Shown here piece after piece: positions 1 through 63,900 of a DNA stretch of 64,000 bases. Source of the DNA: Watersipora subatra (taxonomy: Eukaryota; Bryozoa; Gymnolaemata; Cheilostomatida; Watersiporidae). How positions within the stretch are numbered: position 1 is the first letter of the stretch; each line of letters starts with the position of its first letter. The position numbers and the translations under genes were made by a program. The notes beneath the pieces were generated by a model. That model was not told the origin of the DNA, did not search any database, and worked only from the letters and a program-made list of their open reading frames with translations. The DNA lies in the NCBI RefSeq assembly GCF_963576615.1, contig NC_088711.1, positions 36,444,121 through 36,508,120 of the forward strand, in the 5' to 3' direction.

Positions 1-698
1 CATCACTGCGTGATGCAAACTGGTCTTTAGAATGATAGTGATATCGCCGACATCGCACTAACCATTTTTTGATATTATATTAATATAATATCGGTATAAT
101 ATCAAAATTAATATATTAATATAATAGATGATATTGATATAACCAGCATATCAGCATCTACCTCCCATACACAATAGATCACCCACACTATATAACTCAT
201 CTGTAACTTATCACATACCAAATACATGCACAAAAATACTATACATAAATTATCTGCAAATACAACTTGAAATAATATTATGATTTGAAAAAAAATCTGA
301 TGCTTAAATAAGTTTGAATAGCAATTTAATTAGCAATCTAAAACTTCTATGGACATCTTTGAGAAAGAATAGAAACTTGAGAAATGACAGAAATCAAAGC
401 AACAAAAACATATAAACCGGCTGATGCCTCAAATTATCAACCTTGAATTTGACCCCAACAGACGCCTTCAATAAACCTGTGAAAGAACTCAGTTTAACAG
501 TTTATCTATAAATATGGCTTATCCTATTTCTACTTAATTCAAAAGTGATGTATGATTGAAAATAATAAAATAAAATTCAATAGATTGTTTAGAACTTATC
601 TAGGAATATGGGTATTTAGAATCTAGATGACTAGTTGATAAAAACAGTTGCTAGAGTTAGCAGAAAGTTTTAACTGAAACCAACTGAATCTATCTGTG
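1..698. other. AT-rich non-coding stretch at left edge
   Basis: No supported exon, RNA gene or transposon end was seen here. It should be intron of the zinc-finger gene, because the last exon seen (ending at 940) finishes in phase 1 and needs a further exon. The segment at 85-130 is made of short repeats of ATTAATATAATA type. Confidence 0.4.
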
Positions 699-965
699 TC
701 TGATATCTCCTCAGTCTTTGACAAAGGTATAATCCAGCTGCTATACTCACCTATGCACGAGTCTGATATCTCCTCAGTCTTTGACAAAGGTATAATCCAG
801 CTGCTATACTCACCTATGCACGAGTCTGATATCTCCTCAGTCTTTGACAAAGGTATAATCTAGCTGCTATACTCACCTATGCACGAGTCTGATATCTCCT
901 CAGTCTTTGATAAAGGTATAATCTAGCTGCTATACTCACCTATGTACGAGTCTGATATCTCCTCA
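699..965 (-). repeat. 63-bp tandem repeat containing an exon end and its splice donor (about 4 copies)
   Basis: Four copies, spaced exactly 63 bp, each carry the complement of TCGTGCATAGGTGAGTATAG. Each unit is about 34 nt of exon end plus about 29 nt of intron start. Donor GT dinucleotides fall at minus-strand 939, 876, 813 and 750. The two copies nearest the exon have TAG in the downstream frame; the two farther ones have TGG, so those stay open. Confidence 0.9.
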
Positions 966-1669
966 CTCTTAGTATCGGTAGAATCAGCTGTGAGAGAATC
1001 CGGCTCAACATAACCATCTGATTGAGAAGAGCTGTTGTCTGCTGCTTGAGCATGCGAAATTTTCTCAACTTTCACAAGTGAATCGGTTTCATTCTTCAAG
1101 CCATCAATGATCTTCACTGAAGTAGCCACAAGTTTAGATGTTGGTGCATGTTTTATGATGCGTCTGAGACCAAGTTTAACACCCTGGTTATCCTTCGTTG
1201 TAGCCAACACGGTCTGTTCACCTTCCAGCAATGAGCCATCCACCATATTCTCATAAACAACAAAGTTGCCTGATCGTGATACTGGCAGAGGAGAAAGCAG
1301 GTTTAACACTTTAACCTTCTTGAGCTCTTCAAAGGTCATACTAAGACTAGGCTGCGAAGTGACTTTTGTATCATTATTTTGTACGGACACAACATGGTAT
1401 GGGGTGAGGCCTGTCTTTGGTGGCAAGGGAGCAATAGGAATGACTCCAGACTTTTTAACAGTTTCTGATGGCGCGCTAGAAGCAGAAGTATCTGCAGCCT
1501 TAGCCTTGACATCTACCGGCATTTCTTCATCACTCTCTTCCGATTCCTGGTTGACATTTACCGTGACAAGTTTGCGCAAGTCCATTTCCTCCTCATCGCT
1601 TTCAGAATTGAATAAGACATCCGCTTTTTCTCGGCTAGTAGAAGGAGCTCCAGTAGATAAGACTTTCAC
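940..1669 (-). CDS. Zinc-finger gene, large exon with acidic Ser-rich region
   Basis: Acceptor TATATTTTAG and donor ATAG|GTGAGT. The exon holds 243 codons plus 1 base and has no other plausible frame. Acidic clusters such as NSESDEEEMD and NQESEESDEEMP are typical phosphorylation-rich segments of nuclear proteins. The donor is the first of four copies in a 63-bp tandem repeat. In-frame read-through would add only GEYSS before a TAG at about 923. Confidence 0.65.
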
Positions 1670-4600
1670 CTAAAATATAAATAAATCATGCATCTCAAAC
1701 CAATTCTTTGACAACTCTCACTGTGAAATTAATTCAACAGGTTTTCAACCTCACCAAAAAATCTAGCATTTATATGGCGATCTTGCTGGGTTGCACATGT
1801 AACAGTTACAATGTGGCCTCTTGGTTGCAGAACTACTGAACAGCACTTATGACAGCGCTAATAGATACAGCATCTCCTGCTAAGCAACCAAACTCTTTTC
1901 ACTGTGAAATTGCAGAAAGTTGTTTAAGATTGGTAAATGATTGCAGTGTAAAAAAGGTTTTGAATAGCTGGCAATGCAGAAGGAAGCAACATCTCATTTG
2001 TTAAGAGGAATGGACTTTACTACATTTTATCAAATTAAAAAGCTTCTTGTCAAGTTTGCAGCAGGAAGTATTGAGCTGAGAGGCAAATTGAGGTCGATAG
2101 ACGCCTGTATATGCGGAGGTGGAATAATGAAAAAAGGCGTTTCATTATTCACTATACGTTGAACAGCAAAACTTGCAACAGGTTTAGACAAAATATCTTT
2201 ATGACGTTATTATCCTATTTGCTATCAATGAAGAGGGTATAATATGTAGTTCAAAATAGCAGTGATTAAAATAAGAGAATAATAACAGTGATTAAAATAA
2301 GAGAATAATAACAGTGATTGGAATAAGACAAGAATAACAGTGGTTGGAATAAGACAAGAATAACAGTGGTTGGAATAAGACAAGAATAACAGTGATTGGA
2401 ATAAGACAAGAATAACAGTGGTTGGAATAAGACAAGAATAACAGTGATTGGAATAAGACAAGAATAACAGTGGTTGGAATAAGACAAGAATAACAGTGAT
2501 TGGAATAAGACAAGAATAACAGTGGTTGGAATAAGACAAGAATAACAGTGATTGGAATAAGACAAGAATAACAGCGGTTGGAATAAGACAAGAATAACAG
2601 TGGTTGGAATAAGACAAGAATAACAGTGGTTGGAATAAGACAAGAATAACAGTGATTGGAATAAGATAAGAATAACAGTGGTTGGAATAGGACAAGAATA
2701 AGTGATTGGAATAAGACAAGAATAACAGTGATTGGAATAAGACAAGAATAACAGCGGCTGGAATAAGACAAGAATAACAGTGATTGGAATAAGACAAGAA
2801 AAACAGTGATTGGAATAAGATAAGAATAACAGTGGTTGGAATAAGACAAGAATAACAGTGATTGGAATAGGACAAGAATAAGTGATTGGAATAAGACAAG
2901 AATAACAGTGATTGGAATAAGACAAGAATAACAGTGATTGGAATAAGACAAGAATAACAGTGATTGGAATAAGACAAGAATAACAGTGATTGGAATAAGA
3001 CAAGAATAACAGTGATTGGAATAAGACAAGAATAACAGTGGTTGGAATAAGAAAAGAATAACAGCGGTTGGAATAAGATGAGAATAACATTGGTTGGAAT
3101 AAGACAAGAATAACCTGCAATATTCACTTTTCTGATAGCTATAGCCTGTGTATAATGACACCTCACCTCATCTGGAATGGTAGTTGCCTTCCTCCTTTCA
3201 TTCATATCAATGCTTGAGGTAGATGACTCCGCTGCTGCTACCGCTGCCGGAGGAGAGTCAGAGGAGGCCTTGCTACGCTTAGTTCTTGAGTAGACTTTGG
3301 TCATCCGCTTTGTCAACTTTTCTGGTTCTTCTATTTCAAGAAATTCTTGTTCAGGTCGCTTCCTTTTCTCACCAACTTTGCTCTCGTCAGACTCGTCAAC
3401 TAAAATTGAGCCATTGTAGAGATTGAGGGCCAATCAGAAATAAGGATTTTATAATAATAATGTTATAATATACATGATGTTGGCAGCAACCATGATGCAG
3501 TGGGTAACACTCTGGGCTACCAAGCAGCAGGTTAGCAGTCTAAAATCCACTATGGGATGTGAGGAAGGCCATTGGTCTTAAAATGCTCTCGTGTGTCAAG
3601 ATGACGTGGAGTTGTAACCCACTAAGGAATTGTATTCCTGTAGGACAGGGTTCTTCCGCAGCCGTTGCACCTGGAATTCCCCTCAGATGTACTGGCTGTG
3701 CTTCTTCTCTGACTCAAAAGATTTATGGCAAGAGAAGCTAAGACCACCCAAGGCAGCTAAATCAATTCTGGCAAGTTTTTTTCAAATATGTGAAATGATC
3801 CAATCATTGTCAATTATGACATTAGTATCCCAAACATACATACTTGTTGGATCTATAGCTAGATAAATAGCCTGTAGGTCACTTTTTTAGAGAAACCATA
3901 CATGATAGACAGGAAGTGCTAACTTCAATTTTTATTATTTTTTACATAAAGTGAAGTCTTATGAAATGATCATCTGATGTCTTTTTACCTGGTCACAGTT
4001 TGAGACTCCTATGTATGAAAAACTGTCATGGTTAATTTTCACCAACAAGGGCACAAGAGGACACAAGCTTATAAAAAAAGCGGTAAGCAGGTAAAAAGGA
4101 GGTAGGCAGGTTAAAAAAGACATACATTTTTAGGCTGCCTTCACAGGGTTGTTTTACATCAAAATTCGTTTTATTTCAAATGTTAACAAGGCGAAAAAAC
4201 ATGTTAAAAGTATATTGTGCTTGTGCAAGTAATTAGGGTATCCCTTAGGGCTTAGGCAAAGCAATAGATTTTAGAGCCATGAATTACATCCATTCATGAC
4301 AAGATTGTAGAGTCGTAAGTTATCATAGATGGGTTTACCCTGGGTCAGTTATTGTTAGTGTGTTTCCAGGGACCTATTACTCGCATGTGTTACTGTGGAT
4401 GCATAATTTTAGACACGATGAAGCGATATGTGGATATACTATAAATAATTGTCCATTGTTCCAATGATGCCCCACGGAAATCAGACAACTTTCGGCATTA
4501 GTAATTTTAGCCAATGTGGCACCAATGGGTCGATCTGAGCGATTAGGTTGCAATAGGCTGCAACATTGACAATGGTAACAGCTTTGATTTTAGTTGTACT

Positions 4601-19141: not shown

Positions 19142-19156
19142 ATGATATATATATAT

Positions 19157-19220
<64 letters not shown>
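19142..19220. repeat. (TA)n microsatellite, 5' flank of LINE
   Basis: An alternating AT tract, interrupted once near 19160, directly abuts the LINE fragment at 19221. Confidence 0.95.
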
Positions 19221-19223
<3 letters not shown>

Positions 19224-19262
19224 TTGCCTTGTTGGGAGCAAGTGCTCCCAACAAGGCAACTC
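19221..19262. repeat. Perfect 20-bp inverted repeat at LINE 5' junction
   Basis: GAGTTGCCTTGTTGGGAGCA at 19221-19240 is exactly complementary to 19243-19262, with spacer AG. The right arm belongs to the element's coding sequence, so the left arm looks like a fold-back copy made at insertion. Confidence 0.95.
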
Positions 19263-19945
19263 CAAACGAAAATCTATCACACTAGAGATGATCCTAGATG
19301 CAGACTGTGCAAAGATGCACCTGAGACCATCCAACACATCATCAGTGGATGCAAGCAGCTAGCAGGGAACGCATACACTGAGCGGCATAATCATGTCACA
19401 GGTGTTGTGTATAGAAGTCTATGTGATGAGTATGGCCTTAATAAATCACAACACTGGTGGGAAGCTCCTGGTAAGGTCAATGAAAATGACCGGGCTAAGA
19501 TCCTCTGGGACTTCTACATCCAAACTGACAAGCATGTCCTGGCAAACCAACCAGATATAGTGGTGGTAGACAAGGAGAACAAGAGGGCTACTATAATAGA
19601 TATAGCAGTACCCAATGACTACAATATAGCCAGCAAAGAAAAAGAAAAGGAAGAGAAATATCTCCCTCTTGGAGAAGAAATTGAAAAATGCTGGAATGTA
19701 AGAACAACTGTAATCCCAGTAGTCAATGGGGCACTGGGCGCAATAACACCAGCGCATGAAATTTGGCTTGCCCAAATACCAACAGCAATCAACTCAGGTG
19801 AGTTGCAGAAAAGTGCGCTATTGGGAACAGCTAAGATCTTGAGGCGAGTGCTCAAACTCCCAGGTCTCTGGTAGGAGACCCGAGTTAGAGCAGAATTTAC
19901 CACCCAAGCGGGGGTATCCGGGGTGAGGAAACAATTTTTTTTAAA
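19221..19945 (+). mobile_element. 5'-truncated LINE with CCHC knuckle and restriction-like endonuclease (R2/R4/NeSL-type)
   Basis: The frame from about 19221 to a stop at 19872-19874 encodes the C-terminal end of a non-LTR retrotransposon polyprotein. It contains a zinc knuckle C-x2-C-x8-H-x4-C (CRLCKDAPETIQHIISGC) and, about 70 residues later, PDIVVVDKENKRATIIDIAV. The latter fits the PD...D core of the restriction-like endonuclease found after the reverse transcriptase in R2, R4/Dong and NeSL-type elements. The conserved tail VIPVVNGALGAI follows. The reverse transcriptase itself is missing. The 3' UTR contains CCCGAGTTAGAGCAG and ends in a T-rich/(TA)n tract. The first 42 bases form a perfect hairpin. 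The frame is intact, so the insertion may be fairly young, but this fragment cannot move by itself. Confidence 0.88.
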
Positions 19946-24641: not shown

Positions 24642-24758
24642 CTATAACTCATCGTCAGGTATGTTGTCCAAGTCTTCAAAATCATCAGAGCATCGCTCAC
24701 ACAAGGCCTCATTCCTGCCGTAGTCTATGCACTTGTCTCCTATACACTCACAACAGCC
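24642..24758 (-). CDS. TWSG1: TWSG1 exon 4: C-terminal Cys-rich domain, part 2, and acidic tail
   Basis: Acceptor ATTTGTAG. It encodes GCCECIGDKCIDYGRNEALC, then ERC and a 14-residue acidic tail (DDFEDLDNIPDDEL after SER) to the stop at 24642-24644. Compared with the vertebrate FHNACCEC junction, one residue is inserted at the exon 3/4 boundary. Confidence 0.95.
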   Translation of the reverse strand, partial: GCCECIGDKCIDYGRNEALCERCSDDFEDLDNIPDDEL

Positions 24759-27700
24759 CTACAAATAAGATATCCATAAAAGTTAAATCAATGCCTTTAT
24801 TTTACTGCATTTTTGTGTAGTATATTTTTATTGTTAATATATGTGCCAGTTCTCTCTAATAACATAGGGCATTTGCAACCAAATCTTTTACCAGAATCCA
24901 TCCAAATTCAATGGCTAATCTTTACATTTTATGGATAGGTAATAAATCATGGAGGATAGTAATATATCATAGAGGATAGTAATATATCATAGAGGATAGG
25001 TAATATATCATAGAGGATAGATAATATATCATAGAGGATAGTAATATATCATAGAGACTAGGTAATATATGACAGAGAGCAGGTAATATATGATAGAGAA
25101 TAGGCAATATATGACAGAGAGCAGGAAATATATGATAGAGAATAGGTAATATATCATAGAGAATAGGTAATATATCATAGAGCTCTAGCCGAGTAAGACT
25201 ACCATTGATAGGAGTGAGCTAACAAAAGAAATGAAACTTACCCTGTTGTGAAACCAGCGAAAGCGGGCGGCACCCATCGAACGACAAGTTTCTTTGCACT
25301 TTGATAATTGGAGACAACTTTTGACAAAAGCAACTGTGCAGTTTTCCATCTTAACTGTGCTGAGTACCTCTTTGTCCCAAGAGAATCTCACCAGACTGTT
25401 TTCTAACAAAGACCAGGTAATAGTGAATTATAGGAGCTATCCATGATTTCGAGTAATACAAGAGCTATAAAGGCTATTAAGCCAGTCAAAACAGTTTTAA
25501 AAAACTGGTTATACTTTTAATATGCACGTAATAAGACTTGAAAGGTAGTGCTGCGGTAACTTCACAGATGTTGATCAACACATTCTGTCAATGATTCGAA
25601 ACAATCTCATATATTTTCATTAGGTCTATGCCCGTTCGGGATATCTTGAGGCTGACCAGTTTTTTAATCACAAACTATAAAGAAAGTAATATTGTGAAAT
25701 GCAACTCTCTGACAAGGTTTTGTTTACTTGTTATGTCTTATAGAAATTTTGAATGATGAATCTAAACCTCCAAAATAAATTTAAAAGTATTAATGAAATG
25801 TAATGGAAAGAAAATTTGAATAATGTTTAAACTCACCCTACGACGAGAGAAATGTTCACACTAAAGGTTATACAAAACGCAATGTTGCGTGGGAATTAGA
25901 AACACATTAGCAAATGCATTGAATGCGAATAGGATATAATATTCTGTGCAGAGACATTGGAATTGTTTCTAAACTAAGACAGAAACAAATTGTTAACCAA
26001 CTCTGGCTTCGGCAAACCATAGATGCAAACATGGCTTCATTACAGCGTTTCCTGAGCAATCGCTAAATGAAGACATCGCTTAAACTGAATGAAAATTTCT
26101 GGTGGAAAGCAATTCGGTATCACTACGCGAGGACTACAGGAATGAAGAACGTATGAATGGGACTGTAGCGAATGACTGAAATAATAGAGCGTCGATCGGT
26201 TTGGAGTACTACAATTTTTGGAACATCTCCGAGACCCTTGCTCGCAGTTATCCTAGAGGAATGAATAAGGACAGAAAAGATAAATGATAGGACAGTTGGG
26301 TTCCCTGTATATATGGAGTAAGTGTATGCCATTGAATTCCTATGGTCTATGTTGAGCATTGAGACTGGGTATGGTAATGCCTCCATGACGCATCTTGGAT
26401 AAATGTGGCCTGAGATCTTCATCAATATTAAAAATTTATTAATAGGCTATCGGTGTGTTTTCATTGTGAGGATGACGAAGATTGGGAGTTGTGCACACAT
26501 TGAGTTACTGTGCATTATGTGTTTCCATAGACATTCATGCGTTGCGGTCAAATGCGTTCGGATTTGTTAAGTAAAATAAGGAAGTTTATGCCAAAGGTCA
26601 TAGCAGCGCACTCCTGTATCACTCAAATCGAAATGACTGACATGTGAAAAATGTTTAAGATGGAATAGCTTACTTGAAATTTTCTGGCTATTATTCGCAA
26701 TGGCGTTTCTATCTTGTGCGTTGCATAACCGACATGCTCGGTAAATGCTCTGCTCAATAGAGTCACTGTGCCAGTTTATCGAAAGTTCGTATAGAGGACA
26801 ACCCCTAGTTTATATGTACACCAGCAAGCCTCAATGCATGCGCCTAGATCAAACCCACTCAATAACAGATAGACTTCCCACAGGGATACGCATAATCTGG
26901 ATGCACCTTTAATGAGAGAAGAATAAAACTAGAAGTAGCTAGTAATAAACTTAAAGATCAAAGTTCATTCCATCCTCTTCCTTCATTCTGATCAGTTCTC
27001 AGCTGAATCTATTGATAGATTCAGCTGAGAACCTGAGACAAAACCTGAGAAGCCCTAAAAATATGCACTGCCGTAAACCTGCATCTCCTGCTACTCTGTG
27101 AAAATTTAATAAAAACAATTAGTACAAGTCTAAAAAAAGCTAATAAACATGAAGTCTCACAATCAGTACTGCTTCAACGCTAAGGCAAGGAGAGAAAACT
27201 CCACAAAAATGTGACACGAGACCTTTATAACAAATACTACCTCACTGCTAAGAATCAAATGAGAACTCTGAATATTCTGATATGAAAGCTGTGTAACGAC
27301 CGAGAGTCAAGGGTAGTTAACTCCATTAATACTGCAATATGCAAGCTGTGTAAGCAGTATCGCTGTTGCTGAGAGTCAAGGAGAGAGAATGCCATAAATA
27401 TTGTTGATGGGCATCCTTGCATTCAGTGAACTGTTGATACACTCATAGTTAATATATTACTAAAATACATTACTCATAGAGGGTCTAAGGAAAGAAACCA
27501 TACTATTTTAGCCATAGTAGCTATGAATCCTCAATAATAGACCACTTTCATTCCATTAACTTTTATTCACCCCACCTAGGCATTCAAAAGAAGTTAGCAA
27601 AAGGACCTTAGGCTAGATAGTTAATGTAGAAAGACAACTCAAAGCACCAGTCATTCTGGGTAAGCTTATTACCAGCCAGCGCATTCCCCTACTCCCATGT

Positions 27701-30700: not shown

Positions 30701-33700
30701 ACAACCAGAATAGATTAACAATCAGAATAGATTAACAACTGTGTAAAATAGACCCGGCAGATTATTAGCCTCTGAACCAACTTTAGTGTTGGAACGACGA
30801 TCAACTAGAAATTATAAAATTGTCTATCCACATTTTTCTCTAACGGTAAAGAGAAAAGCCTACAATATTTCTCCACTAGATATTACTACTATTGATAGAC
30901 TATTACTACTGAACAGATATAAATGGCCTCCCTCTGATCTCTCTCTCTCATCACTCCGAGCAGTTTAAGGCTACCTGTTGAATTGATTGCCTAATAAATT
31001 ATTCCTTCAAGTTATTGACTGACAGATGTTAAAGACCAACACTAGACATCCCAAGCAGCTCACCGCTACCATAAGCTGGGGTTTGAACACAGGCAAGTGA
31101 TTGAAACCGCAAGTCATTGCTAGACAATCTTTGGTCGACAGACCAATCTCAAATACGAACGAGACACAAGAACACAAAGACCTTGGACATTACAGATGAA
31201 ATGAGCTCCATCGAAGGGGACTGCATTCTTCCTGGGGCTTGGCAAGGTTCTCTTTGTCACAAGAATGTGATTGGATAAAATTAATAATATATGCATCGAG
31301 TGGTAGCGATTGGTAAGGAAAACACATTCACCATATCGGCAAAGGCTACTGCAAACCACATTGCGATGATGAAAAACTTTTTGTCGATCATGCCTGCAAT
31401 GCCCTAAAATGTCAATTAACAAGAATACCCTTACTTATAATAATGCTTTGCCTTCACATAGTTGGCAGGTGTATGGCAAAATGTATGAAATCATAAGGAG
31501 GCGAAAAGGTTTCAAACCGGTGCAATTACGATGTACCACTGCATCACTGTTTCCACGATGTGGTTAATCCGCAGGTTTCCATCATCTGCAAGTCCCGAAA
31601 GTCAGCAAGAACGAATACGACCAAAAAGAAAGATGCACAAAAACCTGGAAGTCAAATGAATTTTGTTACTCAAAAATTTTCAGCGAATGTTTCATGCTTG
31701 CAGAAGATGGAAATGACACTTACGAATGATGCGCAAGGAAATGCCGCGCAGGCTATTCCATGTTACAGACATTCTAGTTGTTCCTATTTCGAAAGTGTGT
31801 TACTAAGTACCTAAGCCACTTTGACCTCTGAAGTAGAACTCCTTATCTCTTTTAACAAAGCACTCGCGTTAATCGGCAGCATGCGAATATCCATTGAAAC
31901 ACTTATCACATGGTCACTCAACGAGCACGCAATTCCAAATCTACATCATCTGCACAACAGAAACATAGTGTATATTACACTACTATTAGACATGAGAATT
32001 TGTGGTAGCCCCAGTCTATAATTCGTTGCTAAGCACGGCCCTCACCTGTATCGACGGCCCTAACCTGTATCAACGGCCCTAACCTGTATCGACGTCCCTA
32101 ACCTGTATCGACGGCCCTAACCTGTATCGATGGCCCTAACCTGTATCGACGGCCCTAACCTGTATCGACGGCCCTAACCTGTATCAACGGATACTCCAAA
32201 GTTCTTGTGGTGAAGCAGACTCTCATAGGCTGGATACTTTATCACACTCCACATATCATTTGTTGGCTCCTCTGATTCTGTCAGTGCAGAAAATAGTCCA
32301 GGAATAGGATCACGCAGGTCTTCGACAGAACTAGAGTTGAGTGCACCATGTATGACCTCTGGAGGTTCACACATTCCTAAAATAGTCATTTGTGGTTGAT
32401 AAAAGACAACAAACATCCCATGAATACATGAATGCAAAGGTTGTCGGTGTGTAGGGAGAATGTAGAGCACGACCATTGCTCATGTCATAGATTTCTAATA
32501 CAGTCAAACCATGGCTTACAATCATATCTACATACAAATTTTTGACACACTATCAAATTCAGGCTAATATTTGTCTCAGAATTCAAAGTAACTGTCAATA
32601 TATGCCGTACGGAGTTTCTCAAAACAAAAGAGTTTGGTAAGTGCATATGCATGCGGTTCTCCTTCACAATCTTTGGTTCTCTGACGTTCAAATAAACAAG
32701 CTTCGAACCTTTCTTAAATTTAAAATTATGAATCACCAGACTAGTGCTAATAGTAGTGAAAAAAAGGAAAGGTTTTTTTAGAATTTAGCAAGAAATTATA
32801 AAAAACATGAGCAAAGATCTTTGATATAATTTTCTAAAAACTTTCTAAGCTATTAAGAAGTCAACATGATAAAAAAGGTGGTGCAGAGGAAAACTCGGAA
32901 TGAGCGAGTACAAAGACTGATAACAATGAAAAAAAGTGAAAAAATATTATTTATAACCAAAATAACAAAATAACCTATAATAATGTTAGGCCAATGTAGT
33001 CTAAGATAGGCTAGCTCCGTATCGCGACTGTCGGTCTCTTGTATCATCAAATTTACCCTTTGCCTTTAGAGTAAAGACAATTTAAAAATAAAGCCTCCTA
33101 TTGATTATTACTTTATATGTTACGTCTTTTAAACATAATTAAGTTTTTAGATTTTTATGTAATGTATTTAATTTAATACAAAAAATATATAGGCCTATAT
33201 ATACTCGGCAGGCTTTAATATTAAAGATACTGATGGCGAATATAACTTAGGGGATCATAAACATGATCATCATTATGTTAGACTAGCTTTACATTTTGTA
33301 CAAAGTAAGATGAAGGAAGTCTAGAAACAAGACTAATCTATGAGTAGTCTTGCCTGCTCTAATTTTACAAGAAGTTTCCGAGAAATTGAGTGTGATAACT
33401 GAGCAAAATATGCTAAACAGGCCAGTACGAGCTGTTAGTAGATATCGCGAGTATGTACTTGCAGATGTTCTAGCGTCAATGTAGCGCTACGGTCTAAATA
33501 CAACTAGACGATTGTGTGTTTAGTGAACTAAATCCCACCAGTATAAACTGCAATCATACACTATGTTTCCATGATGCGCAGTGCTTCGGAGTTGCGCTAT
33601 CTCCGAATCATGGAAACGGCGTCTTCGCACTGAAATCACTGCGCACTGATCAGTGCGAAGCCAGTGCAAATTCGCAGCAAGGAAACAGCGACTGCGCAGT

Positions 33701-39700: not shown

Positions 39701-39953
39701 GAAATCTAATCTTCAACTTACCTACACACGAGCAACAGCTGGGGTATTTGTCCTCCAAACAAGCAGCACATGTAGCGCAACAAGGACAATCTTCCTCTGT
39801 TGCTCCTTCAGGAACATCACAGTTGCAAGACTTGAGGAGCTGACATTTAGTAACGATTGGGCCACATACGATGTCATTGCACGATGACACATTTTTCACT
39901 ATTAGTGATAATAAATAGAAGCAACAGTAGAAGAGAAGCTGTTGATGTTTCAT
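24642..39953 (-). CDS. TWSG1: Twisted gastrulation (secreted BMP modulator), complete coding sequence in four exons
   Basis: Exons 39953-39722, 32376-32179, 25402-25242 and 24758-24642 join in phase into 235 codons plus stop; the vertebrate protein is about 223 aa. Residues 1-24 form a signal peptide (FYCCFYLLSLIV). The N-terminal Cys-rich domain includes CNDIVCGPIVTKC, CNCDVPEG and CCSCVGMC. The middle region has the family signature SVEDLRDPIPGLFSALTE. The C-terminal Cys-rich domain has CRSMGAARFRWFHN and GCCECIGDKCIDYG. The predicted mature protein has 24 cysteines. TSG proteins act outside the cell, binding BMP and Chordin and either stabilising the inhibitory complex or promoting BMP release by Tolloid cleavage. 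The start codon follows an acceptor directly (TTTACAG|ATG), so an untranslated 5' exon lies upstream; GTGAGT donors near 40153 and 40484 are candidates. Oddities are an acidic tail after the last cysteine and an eightfold repeat of the exon 2 donor. A separate gene-wide frame from further upstream is intronic. Confidence 0.96.
24945..25180. repeat. 20-22-bp minisatellite in last TWSG1 intron
   Basis: About 11 degenerate copies of ATATATCATAGAGGATAGTA. The array starts about 60 bp from the exon 3 donor. Confidence 0.9.
25242..25402 (-). CDS. TWSG1: TWSG1 exon 3: C-terminal Cys-rich domain, part 1
   Basis: Acceptor TTTGTTAG and donor AGG|GTAAGT. It encodes ENCTVAFVKSCLQLSKCKET and CRSMGAARFRWFHNR. 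The nearly invariant RWFH motif is present. Confidence 0.95.
26513..26740. mobile_element. Degenerate copy of the GTTTCCATG MITE family
   Basis: It starts CATTATGTGTTTCCATAGAC. Its interior (GTTTAAGATGGAATAGCTTA and ATTCGCAATGGCGTTTCTAT) resembles the elements at 44257 and 46396. The ends are eroded. Confidence 0.5.
26995..27032. repeat. Perfect 18-bp-arm palindrome
   Basis: GTTCTCAGCTGAATCTAT and its exact inverse are separated by TG. Confidence 0.95.
29943..30738. repeat. 17-bp minisatellite, about 46 copies, with 221-bp higher-order repeat
   Basis: The unit is AACCAGAATAGATTAAC. A block of 13 units with the same variants (marker AACCAGAAAAGATTAAC at 30091 and 30312) is duplicated at exactly 221 bp. 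It is in TWSG1 intron 2. Confidence 0.95.
32034..32189 (-). repeat. TWSG1: 19-bp tandem repeat of the TWSG1 exon 2 splice donor (8 copies)
   Basis: The minus-strand unit CCGTTGATACAGGTTAGGG covers the last 12 nt of exon 2 and the first 7 of the intron. Donor motifs recur at exact 19-bp steps, with the plus-strand CCTGTATC starting at 32178, 32159, 32140 and so on down to 32045. The copy farthest into the intron reads CAG|GTGAGG, closer to the U1 consensus than the GTTAGG of the others. Reading past the first donor meets TAG at once. Confidence 0.93.
32179..32376 (-). CDS. TWSG1: TWSG1 exon 2: linker with family signature
   Basis: Acceptor CTATTTTAG. The split glycine codon restores the VGMC motif. 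It encodes VEDLRDPIPGLFSALTESEE, then a segment with LLHHKNFGVSVDT. The donor ACAG|GTTAGG is the first of eight 19-bp repeats. Entry and exit phases are both 1. Confidence 0.95.
33559..34232. mobile_element. TIR transposon (family A), copy 1, possibly Harbinger-like
   Basis: The ends are inverted repeats starting CACTATGTTTCCATG, with TGCGCAGT following one base later. The flanks are ATA on both sides, compatible with a 3-bp target duplication. The subterminal regions are GC-rich and carry many TGCGCA palindromes. The interior matches the copy at 56696 in reverse orientation. A 27-codon frame (MICIHEDDEVITFLDFVID) conserved in part may be a transposase or accessory-protein remnant. Length 674 bp. 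Confidence 0.8.
34866..35020. mobile_element. Long-TIR MITE, solo arm
   Basis: AAAGGTTGACTTGCAACAAA and about 150 bp beyond match the left arm of the element at 12765. The other arm was not found nearby. Confidence 0.75.
39722..39953 (-). CDS. TWSG1: TWSG1 exon 1 (coding): signal peptide and N-terminal Cys-rich domain
   Basis: The ATG at 39953 is immediately after the acceptor. Seventy-seven codons plus 1 base; donor TAG|GTAAGT. It contains the signal peptide and 13 of the 14 cysteines of the N-terminal domain. Confidence 0.95.
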
Positions 39954-51904: not shown

Positions 51905-54900
51905 CTGCAAGAAAATATTATATAGTCTGTACTCTATGTTTAAGGCTCATGACAGGTAGACTGGTCAAGTGTCACCAAGGCATACCCGTCAGATATCTCT
52001 TTATTGGTTATATGGTCATTCTCCAATGATGATATGTACATACAGGTATGTAAAATACAAGCTTTCAACTTCTATGGCCCACGCAAGTTGATACCTATTC
52101 TTATGACTGTAAGATACAGGGCTGGAATCTTGACTGCAATCTTTACTATAACTAAAACCGTGCTTGGCTGTCTGCCTGTCCGAAGCAACAGCTAGATGTT
52201 AGAAAAAAGATTGCATTATACGGGAATTGAACATACAACATTTAGCTGGGCAGACGGACACTAACACCTGAACCAATAAACCGTCTTACCACACTTTGCA
52301 ATAATTGTATGTCTAGTTATTAGACCCAATGATCTCTTACGGCATATCAAATTGCCAGGGTACTAGTTTCTTAGGGGCATATTGGCAGCCCAAGCATTAC
52401 GATAGACTTTCTGACAAAAAGGACAAGGTTCTCTCTCTATTCAGTGTTACTGTGCCCACTCACTTTTCTTTAGACTTTTGTAGAAGTCGAGGACCAGAGA
52501 GGCTGATGAGTGCTGCACCGGCTGGTGCTGTGAGGATGATACAAAGAACAGCAATGGTTAGAATATGCAGACCCCAGCGTAGCGTGTCTTCATCAGCACC
52601 TCTGTACAGAGCTGTGTCGTAGGCCCGAGAGCCTATAAGAGCCTGTGGATAATAGGCCTGATGATTAACAAGAACAGGCTGAGAGAAGCATGATGTACAG
52701 TCAGTCAGAGCCTTTTCTTTAGCCTTTTCGGGGAGAGCATAAAAATAGCAACTATACCGGTACAAAAGTGTAATACACTGTTACACAACTGTTGTATACT
52801 AGTACATAGGTGTTATACACTGGTATACAAGTGTTTAATACTAGTACATTAGTGTTATAAGCTGATATACAACTATTATACACTAATAGATAAGTGCTAG
52901 ACACTGGTATAAGTGTTATACAGTAGTACCAAAGTGTTATACCCTGCTACACCGTGTTATACAGTAGTACACACAAGTTTATCTACATCGCTTCATGAGC
53001 AGTAACAATTTGAACATAGAGTTCACATTAGCGATTTGAAATAGTAGTAGGCCTATTGCTTTTATAGTCTGCACGCTATTACATAAATGATTCCAAAAAT
53101 GAATTGATTAATGATTTGCTCACAAAATGTAGAAATCACACTAGTTATAGATGAAAGTAAAGAATATTCACAAAAGTCCGCATTAAATATAGATGTATGT
53201 AAGGCAAACTGATTGCATGAATAAAAAACATAACTGTGAGTTGAAGCATGAGTGAGTCTTGAACTGTAACTCGCGCTATTTTAGTAACCAACTGGCAAGT
53301 TATCAACAATAGACATAATTTTAATGCATTACAGATTACTACTAAATTTCTGATAAGCCAGGAGGGATAGGATTTTATAACCCTATCATCCGAGGCCGGA
53401 GACAGTCTTCCACATCTGAACACCTTTCCTACCTTCCGCCAACACATTAGAGTTTATTTTTCTTTTCGGTGCAAGTCTTAGATTCCCCAAATAAAGGTGT
53501 AAGTCTTAGATTCCCCATATGAAGGTGTAAGTCTTAGATGCCCCAAATGAAGGTATAAGTCTTAGATTCCCCAAATGAAGGTGTAAGTCTTAGATTCCCC
53601 AAATGAAGATGTAAGTCTTAGATTCCCCAAATGAAAGTGTAAGTCTTCGGTTCCCCAAATGAAGGTGTGAGTCTTAGATTTCCCAAATGAAGGCGTAAGT
53701 CTTAGATTCCCCAAATGAAAATGTAAGTCTTAGATTTCCCAAATAAAAATGGAAGTCTTAGATTCCCCAAATGAAGGTGTAAGTCTTAGATTCCCAAATG
53801 AAGGTGTAAGTCTTAGATTCCCCAAATGAAGGTGTAAGTCTTAGATTCCCCAAATGAAGGTGTAAGTCTTAGATTCCCCAAATGAAGGTGTAAGTCTTAG
53901 ATTCCCCAAATGAAGGTGTATAGTTTATGTATCAGCCGGTGCTCATGAGCAGCTCCCTAGGAATAATAATTTAATAATAATGATGATATAATTATGAAAT
54001 ATTAATAATTCGCAGCTAAGGCGTAATCTATATGCAAGTATATATAAATCTAAGTGTTTGTTGGTCTGTTGTATGTCCATTTGTAGAGATAAAATAAGCG
54101 CGCTAAGAACGAAACAATCGCCTCGAACTGGAATTGATCTCGGAAACACCGGTTTTGCAGACAGGCGCGCTAAAGGTGGCTACGCGGCCACCTTACCATA
54201 CTATGAAATAATTGTGGAAACGCTTATTAAACCCGTCAATCTTTAATGGCGCACGGGACGGTCAGTGTACTAAAAAAATACGTGCTCAGACTTCCCCAAA
54301 ATGCTATAAAGATAAGCATATATAATAAAAACTTAATTATAGCGCACACAGAAATAAACAAGCTCCTCTGCACCATTCAAGATAACTTTATGATAAATTA
54401 TAACAGCTGGAGGTCTATTAAAATTTATCATAAAGCTGAAGGTCTGGCTGGAGTATATAGGAGGTATAGCATAATCTGTGCTGAGAGATGGAGTTAGTGG
54501 TAGAATCGCTTCAGATCATTACTCTAGCCCTAATTCAGACATCATCAACATATTGTGGGGTAACATGGTTATCAGCTCGAGGCATACACGATTATTATAG
54601 GCCTATAATTGTATGTTTCTCAGGATACAAGCAGCATTGTCAGAGGCAGTCATTCAAACAGCCGGTACTGCGTAATACACTGATCTTCATCAAGGATGCA
54701 GGAAGTCTCTACACCCATCCTATCCTGATGATCAACCGTATGAAAGTACATGAGCCTGGGAGTCTTCATTAACCGGACATGCAAAAAGATTGCACGCCTT
54801 GCATGACATGCAACTTGCTGTAACCCCAATGATAACTATTTCATACTTGGCCGTACAAAGGAATGATTATAATGAGCTCAGCTTTGACAAACCTATTCTC

Positions 54901-60900: not shown

Positions 60901-63900
60901 AATTAATCAAGTTCAATTATGATGGGGAGACACACACACGCACGCACACACATACACCAGCCATTACAGAAAAAACTCGGCTGAATTGATACATATTTTC
61001 ATCTTAAAATTGCAATTGGTAGCCATGAAGTCATATATGTATCCCACAATGCATTGTATTCTCTACATCACTAAATGGAAAAGGTGTGATAACTACTATA
61101 TTTGCCAGCTTCCTAACTGGCTAATGATTACTGACGACAGCTGACTGGCTTCACAGTATATACTCAAATGTAGTTAATACCTTCGATTGATAAATAAACA
61201 GGATGAGATCAACATGAGGTCAACATGAAGTCAATGTTGACCAGCTCATTTCACAAGTTATCTAAGGAATAACGAACACCAATACACACCCCCAACTTAA
61301 TGATATCACATAAACGGAGTATATTGAAAAACTGTGCAAGCTAAGGAAGCTTATCCTTTAAATCTCAAATAGACTGTGATTTCTAATGTCAGTTGCTAGG
61401 TTCAGACTTGCTCAAGCTACAAGTTTTACGATGACTGTAGAGGCTTTTCTAGTGTCCAACAAAATGATAGATGAGTCCATAGATATAGTAAACCCTACTA
61501 TAGTTTAGGGTTTACTATATCTATGGATGAGTCACTCAAGATGAGGGCCTTTTTGATAATAAACAACTCCTTATAGGAAATACATGAAGGAGATGATTGC
61601 TTGCTATTCTTCCAAGCTACAATGTATGTATGAGACAAAATTGTTGTATAACAAAGATCAGGGTATACATATGGACGTGTACTTGTTGATACGCATGTAC
61701 TCATTGATATATACATGTATATACTTATTGATACACGTGTGCCTATCGGTACAAATGTACTTATTGGTACACATGTACTTATTGGTACACATGTACTTAT
61801 TGATATACATGTACTTATTGATACACATATACTTATTGATATACATGTACTTATTGATACACATGTACTTATTGATACACATGTACTTATTGGTACACAT
61901 GTACTTATTGGTACACATGTACTTATTGATACACATGTACTTATTGGTACACATGTACTTATTGATATACATGTACTTATTGATACACATGTACTTATTG
62001 GTACACATGTACTTATTGATATACATGTACTTACTGGTATACATGTACTTATTGATATACATGTACTTATTGGTACACATGTACTTATTGATATACATGT
62101 ACTTATTGATACACATGTACCTATTGATATACATGTAGTTATTGGTACACATGTACTTATTGATATACATGTACTTATTGATACACATATACTTATTGAT
62201 ATACATGTACTTATTGATACACGTGTACTTATTGATACACATATACTTATTGATATACATGTACTTATTGGTACACATGTACTTATTGATATACATGTAC
62301 TTATTGATACACATGTACTTATTGATACACATGTACTTATTGGTACACATGTACTTATTGATATACGTGTACTTATTGATACACATGTACTTATTGATAT
62401 ACATGTACTTATTGATACACATGTACTTATTGATATACATGTACTTATTGGTATACATGTACTTATTGGTACACATGTACTTATTGATATACATGTACTT
62501 ATTGGTATACATGTACTTATTGATATACATGTACTTATTGAATCACATGTACTTATTGATATACATGGACTTATTGGTACACATGTACCTATTGATATAC
62601 ATGTACTTATTAATATACATGTACTTATTGATATACATGTACTTATTGGTACACATGTACTTATTGATATACATGTACTTATTGATACACATGTACTTAT
62701 TGGTATACATGTACTTATTGGTACACATGTACTTATTGATATACATGTACTTATTGATACACATGTACTTATTGGTACACATGTACTTATTGATATACAT
62801 GTACTTATTGAATCACATGTACTTATTGATATACATGGACTTATTGGTACACATGTACTTATTGATATACATGTACTTATTAATATACATGTACTTATTG
62901 ATATACATGTACTTATTGGTACACATGTACTTATTGATATACATGTACTTATTGATACACATGTACTTATTGATATACATGTACTTATTGATACACATGT
63001 ACTTATTGATCCACATGTACTTATTGGTACACATGTAGTTATTGGTACACATGTACTTATTGATATACATGTACTTATTGATACACATGTACTTATTGAT
63101 ACACATGTACTTATTGGTACACATGTACTTATTGATATACATGTACTTATTAATACACATGTACTTATTGATATACATGTACTTATTGATACACATGTAC
63201 TTATTGATATACATGTACTTATTGATACACATGTACTTATTGATATACATGTACTTATTGGTATACATGTACTTATTGATATACATGTACTTATTGGTAC
63301 ACATGTACTTATTGATACACATGTACTTATTGATACACATCTTGTACTTATTGATCCACATGTACTTATTGATACACATGTACTTATTGATACACATCAT
63401 GTACTTATTGATACACATTTACTTATTAATGCACATGTACTTATTGATATACATTTGCTTATTGATACACATGGACTTATTGATACACATGTACTTATTG
63501 ATGCAAAAAAGAAAACCTAAACAAAGCTAGAGCACTAATAAAATACTAACAATTTTATTACTTCGAGTGGCTGATGGAGCCTGATCTATTAAGGATAACG
63601 TAATGGTTCAAATTGATTAAATATTTTTGATTAAGAAAAATTTTACAGCGAACACCTACAACAAAATCAGACTCACATGAACTAAATAGCTTTACCTCAG
63701 TGACTCCCTGAGGCAGCTGCTGCCTCCATTTGATTGCTGCTACAAATGGTAGGGTGAGACAACCAAGTGCTCCAGATCCTTCAATGCCGGCAGCTGTGCT
63801 TCCAAACAGTGCAAATAGACCTCCACAAAGAAGCAGAAATGATCTCGTCACATCGAGATTTTTCTACAAGGAGAAATACTCTCATCACTAATTTCCGATG

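Follow-up and report, generated by a model that had tools for sequence, protein, structure and literature searches.

Known systems and the present locus

Mirages in the Adh3 gene of amphioxus were reportedly described by Canestro et al. in 2002. Intron gain by tandem genomic duplication, in which an AG/GT site is likewise copied in tandem, is said to be covered by a review.

According to one account, mirages are minisatellite-like tandem copies of exon–intron boundaries, found in amphioxus Adh3 and in the globin genes BflGb6 and BflGb9; their units measure 10–72 bp in Adh3 and about 150–160 bp in the globins, and they are unstable in length (PMC3087553). The same source, citing data for Adh3 and RT-PCR for the globins, holds that regular splicing is undisturbed and that the copies could be cryptic sites (PMC3087553). 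A further account adds mirages in TnC and PGBD5; splice sites are duplicated in the mirages of Adh and TnC, but according to this source no aberrant mRNAs result (PMC3902484). The Rogers model, which is named in PMC3087553, is that of intron gain by tandem genomic duplication.

The locus described here is a ladder of splice donors at the boundary between exon 2 and intron 2 of the twisted-gastrulation gene, TWSG1. It has the structural features of a mirage, and the phenomenon as such is already described. As in amphioxus, the repeat units span an exon–intron boundary and the copies carry splice signals, the AG/GT being intact in many of the amphioxus copies. The 19-bp unit of TWSG1 lies within the range given for amphioxus in PMC3087553, and the units of ten other ladders in the same genome measure 18–67 bp. 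In amphioxus either side of an intron, donor or acceptor, can be copied; in the present genome acceptor copies are seen in two decayed cases, the CCT exons C4_4 and C7_8. The amphioxus examples, however, come from the genes of a cephalochordate in which splicing and length polymorphism were examined, whereas the TWSG1 ladder is known from the sequence of one assembly and one haplotype.

Two other comparisons help to place the ladder. It shares with the Rogers model a tandem duplication containing an AG/GT site, but the TWSG1 array lies within an existing intron 2, with Tsg homology on both sides, and no new intron has arisen. With ordinary intronic minisatellites it shares period, copy number and divergence, which are as in the other arrays of the window; in contrast to them, its unit holds coding sequence and a live donor.

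The TWSG1 gene and its ladder

The window, that is, the whole stretch of DNA that was analysed, is 64 kb long (G000:C4:36444121-36508120) and belongs to a genome of 784 Mb in 239 contigs. TWSG1 is encoded on its minus strand in four coding exons, and the joined protein of 235 aa matches the Pfam families Tsg (E 3.3e-37) and Tsg_N (E 4.9e-14). The features of the gene, in the order of transcription, are as follows.

39722..39953, minus strand: TWSG1 coding exon 1, with a presumed ATG, a signal peptide and Tsg_N; donor GTAAGT
32179..32376, minus strand: TWSG1 coding exon 2, GMCEPPEVIHGALNSSSVEDL...HHKNFGVSVDT, which joins exons 1 and 3 in frame; Pfam Tsg
32035..32190, minus strand: 19-bp donor ladder at the exon 2/intron 2 boundary, eight copies of CCGTYGATACAG|GTTAGGG
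32173..32178, minus strand: first donor GTTAGG, the sole frame-keeping donor among the eight; score 3.9
32040..32045, minus strand: last donor copy GTGAGG, with the highest score of the ladder, 8.6
25242..25402, minus strand: TWSG1 coding exon 3, acceptor at 25402 in frame with exon 2; donor AGG|GTAAGT
24935..25182, minus strand: 21-bp array in TWSG1 intron 3, beginning about 60 bp past the exon 3 donor and not donor-centred
24642..24758, minus strand: TWSG1 coding exon 4, GCCECIGDKCIDYG...DDEL, followed by a stop

The placement of exon 2 by homology, on which the sequence-only reading of this locus relied, is secure, given the Tsg and Tsg_N matches and the in-frame join to the acceptor at 25402. 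The 21-bp array is a second array near a donor in the same gene.

At the end of exon 2 stands CCGTTGATACAG|GTTAGGG, a junction that is present eight times at an exact, gapless 19-bp period. Each unit consists of 12 bp of exon and 7 bp of intron, and the exonic part of the array runs from 32190 to 32179. Tandem Repeats Finder (TRF), applied to 32035-32190, returns a period of 19, 8.2 copies and 94% matches with a score of 277, against scores of at most 62 (periods of at least 8) when the 64-kb window was resampled ten times under a first-order Markov model. The TWSG1 exon–intron boundary has thus been duplicated, and the duplication is real. Paired exact copies of CAGGTTAGG at the ladder spacing have six matches in the 784-Mb genome, and all six are the TWSG1 array.

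The earlier description of eight copies with a 19-bp period stands, with the correction that GTTAGG is found in seven of them. These seven (CAG|GTTAGG) have their donors on the minus strand at 32178, 32159, 32140, 32121, 32102, 32083 and 32064; the eighth, at 32045, reads CAG|GTGAGG, and GT is retained in all seven downstream copies. On a metazoan donor matrix, the first seven copies score 3.9 and the eighth 8.6, which bears out the claim that the copy deepest in the intron has the stronger donor. Also borne out is the claim that any downstream donor would bring an immediate in-frame TAG: splicing at each of the seven would lead to a premature stop and a protein of 144 aa ending in ...SVDTG.

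This anatomy had been taken to suggest that choice among the donors sets the level of intact BMP modulator. A weak first donor and a strong last donor would then compete, and the 144-aa poison product would tune TWSG1. The idea draws on the position of the strongest donor at the very end of the ladder and on the stop that follows every later donor. Vertebrate spliceosomes tend toward the intron-proximal of two donors when U1 binding is saturating. Set against this, the same anatomy is present in genes that are unrelated and for the most part housekeeping (CCT, kinesin, myosin and a topoisomerase-like exon) and that have no common logic, the donor copies are without constraint, and amphioxus mirages are reported to be free of aberrant mRNA (PMC3902484). 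Regulated donor choice is therefore quite improbable, and a regulatory role for the ladder, including control of the level of the BMP modulator, is unsupported.

Tandem arrays are also known for assembly error, so that a sequencing or assembly artefact might in principle have turned one junction into a ladder. Nothing specific to this locus speaks for such an origin, which is very improbable: the ladder copies differ from one another at several sites and in mixed order, other loci are built alike from different units, and the scaffolds are chromosome-sized, with 11 of 46–79 Mb holding about 736 of the 784 Mb.

The TWSG1 ladder is probably a passive, mirage-type minisatellite, in which the donor at the exon edge is used and splicing takes out the later copies along with the intron. 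A short segment that happened to straddle the boundary, with 12 bp from the end of exon 2 and 7 bp from the start of intron 2, would have been duplicated in tandem, and the duplication would then have grown to eight copies through slippage or unequal exchange. The ladder would be a by-product of a genome in which minisatellites form freely near both ends of exons. It would persist because the splicing machinery picks the exon-edge donor, so that the later copies leave with the intron and drift neutrally. This account supposes an origin by slippage, a first donor that is used exclusively or predominantly, and a selective filter that spares exons from arrays.

Other arrays of the window

The sequence-only reading had noted another donor ladder in the window, unrelated to TWSG1, and both TRF and the sequence confirm that it is real.

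698..970, minus strand: donor ladder with a 63-bp unit in 4.3 copies, ...SDSYI|GTGAGT; GTGAGT is present in all three downstream copies

Its junction, ATAG|GTGAGT, follows an acidic open frame on the minus strand (926-1669), for which Pfam gave no family at a useful E-value. That 64 kb should hold two donor ladders is less surprising than it appears because the window is rich in minisatellites, with 28 arrays making up 13.7% of the sequence. In a non-exhaustive look at two of these, at 53468-53920 (with a unit containing GTGTAAGT) and at 4074-4120 (GCGGTAAGC), no exon was seen in the stretches read.

Also in the window are 61678-63502, where an 18-bp unit is repeated about 100 times and is open in several frames of both strands, and an open frame at 19146-19871 that adjoins a run of AT dinucleotides and that we take to resemble the C-terminal region of a non-LTR retroelement.

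Frequency of donor ladders in unselected exons

The frequency of ladders was estimated from 179 exon ends, chosen by homology and blind to repeats, in genes for the CCT chaperonin, the myosin head and the kinesin motor. The CCT sample comprised 65 exons of eight genes, drawn from 90 matches after the exclusion of partial genes and of the single-frame copies on C3, and the myosin sample comprised 74 of 75 myosin-head exons. For kinesin there were 131 matches, less two with many stops, from which 80 were drawn at random and 40 were read.

Clear donor-spanning ladders were found at six of the 179 exon ends, or 3.4% (95% interval 1.2–7.2%), a rough rate, as some of the ends may not be donors. Two apparently decayed examples, in a CCT gene on C11 and in the kinesin exon L136, raise the count to 8/179; the line between clear and decayed was drawn by eye, after the sequences had been seen. 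The six clear ladders are listed below.

CCT gene on C7: donor ladder, 43 bp, at least eight copies, GATATT|GTGAGT
Myosin exon L064: donor ladder, 43 bp, two copies, exact
Myosin exon L112: donor ladder, 31 bp, 2.3 copies
Myosin exon L080: donor ladder, 30-bp units, partly decayed
Kinesin exon L151: donor ladder, 32 bp, seven copies
Kinesin exon L167: donor ladder, 67 bp, at least 2.5 copies

Together with three of the 14 donor-motif arrays found on C1 (see below), these cases uphold the view that this genome makes donor ladders repeatedly. At L092, L106 and L164, arrays start no more than 5 bp from the donor, and their exonic part is not clear. Five further candidates (L100, L105, L087, L159 and L166) were rejected as ladders and left uncounted, their arrays lying about 13–78 bp inside the intron.

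Two observations on the sampled genes may be added. The kinesin exon L136 (G000:C2:17326012-17326282) ends in TTTGAG|GCGAGT, an apparent GC donor, with a 21-bp array directly after it. On C3 (G000:C3:22626527-30651493), about a dozen CCT-like matches are spread over 8 Mb, each covering some 340–370 model positions with largely open frames, as if they were retrocopies or members of an expanded intron-poor family.

Do arrays favour donors?

From the two ladders of the window, it had been suggested that minisatellites repeatedly nucleate at splice donors. Recurrence is well founded, but for nucleation at donors, or a special pull of donors on arrays, the support is weak at best. An alternative to passive growth is that donors are mutational hot spots, with transcription, R-loops, U1 binding or GT-rich sequence at the exon/intron edge starting tandem duplications. 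The evidence that bears on this explanation comes from the position of arrays relative to donors, from a comparison with acceptors, and from a genome-wide scan for the donor motif.

Nearby introns provide a baseline for position, with nine arrays starting 61–200 bp past the end of the exon match in 23.9 kb. If periods are summed and placement is uniform, 2.2 donor-spanning arrays are expected, against the six observed (P 0.025). This excess speaks for a hot spot, and more so when the decayed examples are included (eight arrays, P 0.002), but it falls to P 0.07 once the partly decayed L080 is dropped and five arrays remain. The arrays at L092, L106 and L164, which begin no more than 5 bp from a donor, point the same way. 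Neither these starts nor the excess of 6 over 2.2 is required by the passive account.

Acceptors were compared at 131 exons (57 CCT and 74 myosin, the latter viewed up to 150 bp upstream). Counting TRF arrays with scores of at least 80, none of 131 acceptors was spanned, against 6/179 donors (Fisher P 0.04), where the 179 include eight last-matched CCT exons that lie outside the TRF donor table. The contrast, which would also favour a hot spot, is reduced when donors are counted strictly, with the array start placed in the exon by TRF itself (5/179 against 0/131, P 0.08). Decayed acceptor-spanning copies in the CCT exons C4_4 and C7_8 change the counts to 8/179 donors and 2/131 acceptors (P 0.20), and in a more sensitive, mirrored test, near-copies were found at 14/179 donor sides and 8/131 acceptor sides (P 0.66). 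The contrast is thus lost, and near-copies are as common on one side of exons as on the other, which would be expected if arrays arise anywhere. The proposition that arrays span donors yet spare acceptors, contradicted by the near-copy test and by the two decayed cases, was accordingly dropped, and a preference for donors over acceptors is not established.

Two acceptor-side loci deserve description. At C4_4 (L049 7900-8200, G000:C4 near 30060271), a decayed 60-bp duplication takes in the acceptor and the start of the exon; the upstream copy reads GCGG and the acceptor GCAG, so the AG has been lost and the upstream acceptor is dead. The array at L127 1-671 (G000:C1:29490750-29491420), which has a 28-bp unit with AAGGTGAGT, was rejected as a donor ladder, as it adjoins the acceptor (GTTTTGCAG) of an exon that is read from the other strand. 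Arrays therefore crowd acceptors too.

The whole genome was scanned for the donor 9-mer MAGGTGAGT, with the reversed pattern as control. Triples of the 9-mer at 3–33 bp spacing number 580 in the whole genome, against 153 for the reversed pattern, overlapping matches being counted. On their face these figures support a hot spot. As a sign of strong enrichment, however, the raw excess (580 against 153, and 394 against 75 in another triple-donor search) was rejected, the counts being of overlapping matches; in the 394 against 75 search, one array fills most places among the matches listed.

Counted as arrays, and among the first 100 matches listed, there are 14 for MAGGTGAGT on C1 (79.35 Mb) and 12 for the reversed pattern in about 266 Mb (C1–C3 and C4 up to 33 Mb). 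Single 9-mers number 18,832 against 8,647 for the reversed pattern, so that donor-motif arrays are 1.8 times as frequent per occurrence (P 0.10, among the matches listed). On C1 alone, the 14 arrays compare with two reversed ones (P 0.08, among the matches listed).

The end of a coding exon is recognisable at three of the 14 C1 arrays.

L118: C1 array at an exon that we take to be DNMT1-like; acceptor visible
L129: C1 array at an exon that is presumably MFSD14-like; acceptor visible
L130: C1 array at an exon with a topoisomerase III-like zinc finger, open over 85 codons; matches Zn_ribbon_Top1 in Pfam (E 2.7e-10)

The short exon pieces of L118 and L129 had no Pfam match. Three of 14 is below the 54% share of 9-mers that exceeds the control (P 0.014), and with two arrays with repetitive flanks left out the fraction is 3/12 (P 0.04); untranslated exons would escape this test. 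Fewer arrays thus lie at coding exon ends than would be expected if real donors were favoured. Mutational hot spots at donors are on the whole an unlikely explanation.

Fate of the extra donors

Across 11 ladders (two in the window, six in the exon sample and three on C1), 42 of the 53 downstream copies have kept GT. Eight of these ladders have three or more downstream copies, and in them departures from the copy consensus are as frequent in the donor nonamer (25/450) as in the rest of the unit (56/876; P 0.63), with the qualification that the cells compared are non-independent, copies sharing states through duplication. Later donors thus show no added constraint or decay, a pattern that fits passive decoys skipped in splicing. 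The GT columns by themselves are lost slightly more often (11/100 against 56/876, P 0.09), which could reflect weak selection against decoys.

Donor strength cannot single out the first copy because later copies are often its equal or stronger, as in TWSG1 and also in L151 (8.2 against 6.3). A broader proposition, which we put forward tentatively and consider doubtful as a whole, concerns the animal itself, which is probably a lophotrochozoan: a few per cent of its donors would be trailed by ladders of equal or stronger decoys that are ignored. A strict first-donor rule would then operate, set by exon definition or the order of transcription and not by strength, and such a rule would let minisatellites spread across exon boundaries.

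Donor ladders are in this respect natural experiments in the choice of 5' splice sites, with equal or stronger copies tens of bases away and a frameshift or stop as the read-out. Should ladders of this kind follow a few per cent of the donors in one genome, RNA-seq could read the positional rule across thousands of natural constructs.

Lineage and wider occurrence

Among the open-access papers listed for mirages and donor minisatellites, which were the amphioxus accounts, general work on intron gain and unrelated studies, titles and abstracts mentioned no such ladders in animals other than amphioxus, which is no proof of absence. The genome studied here is apparently not that of a cephalochordate. 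Fragments of one of its muscle myosin genes score 583 bits against 3i5f and 578 against 1dfk, which we take to be from squid and scallop, followed by Myosin-6 (538), Myosin-7 (524) and two other entries, presumably from insects (513 and 507). These scores, which come from one protein and do not amount to a phylogeny, point to a lophotrochozoan and away from amphioxus.

If this is true, mirages would occur outside amphioxus as well, and they would provide raw material for intron sliding or gain. What is new is the frequency of ladders in unselected CCT, myosin and kinesin exons, which is unexpectedly high; the lineage, too, is probably new for the phenomenon.
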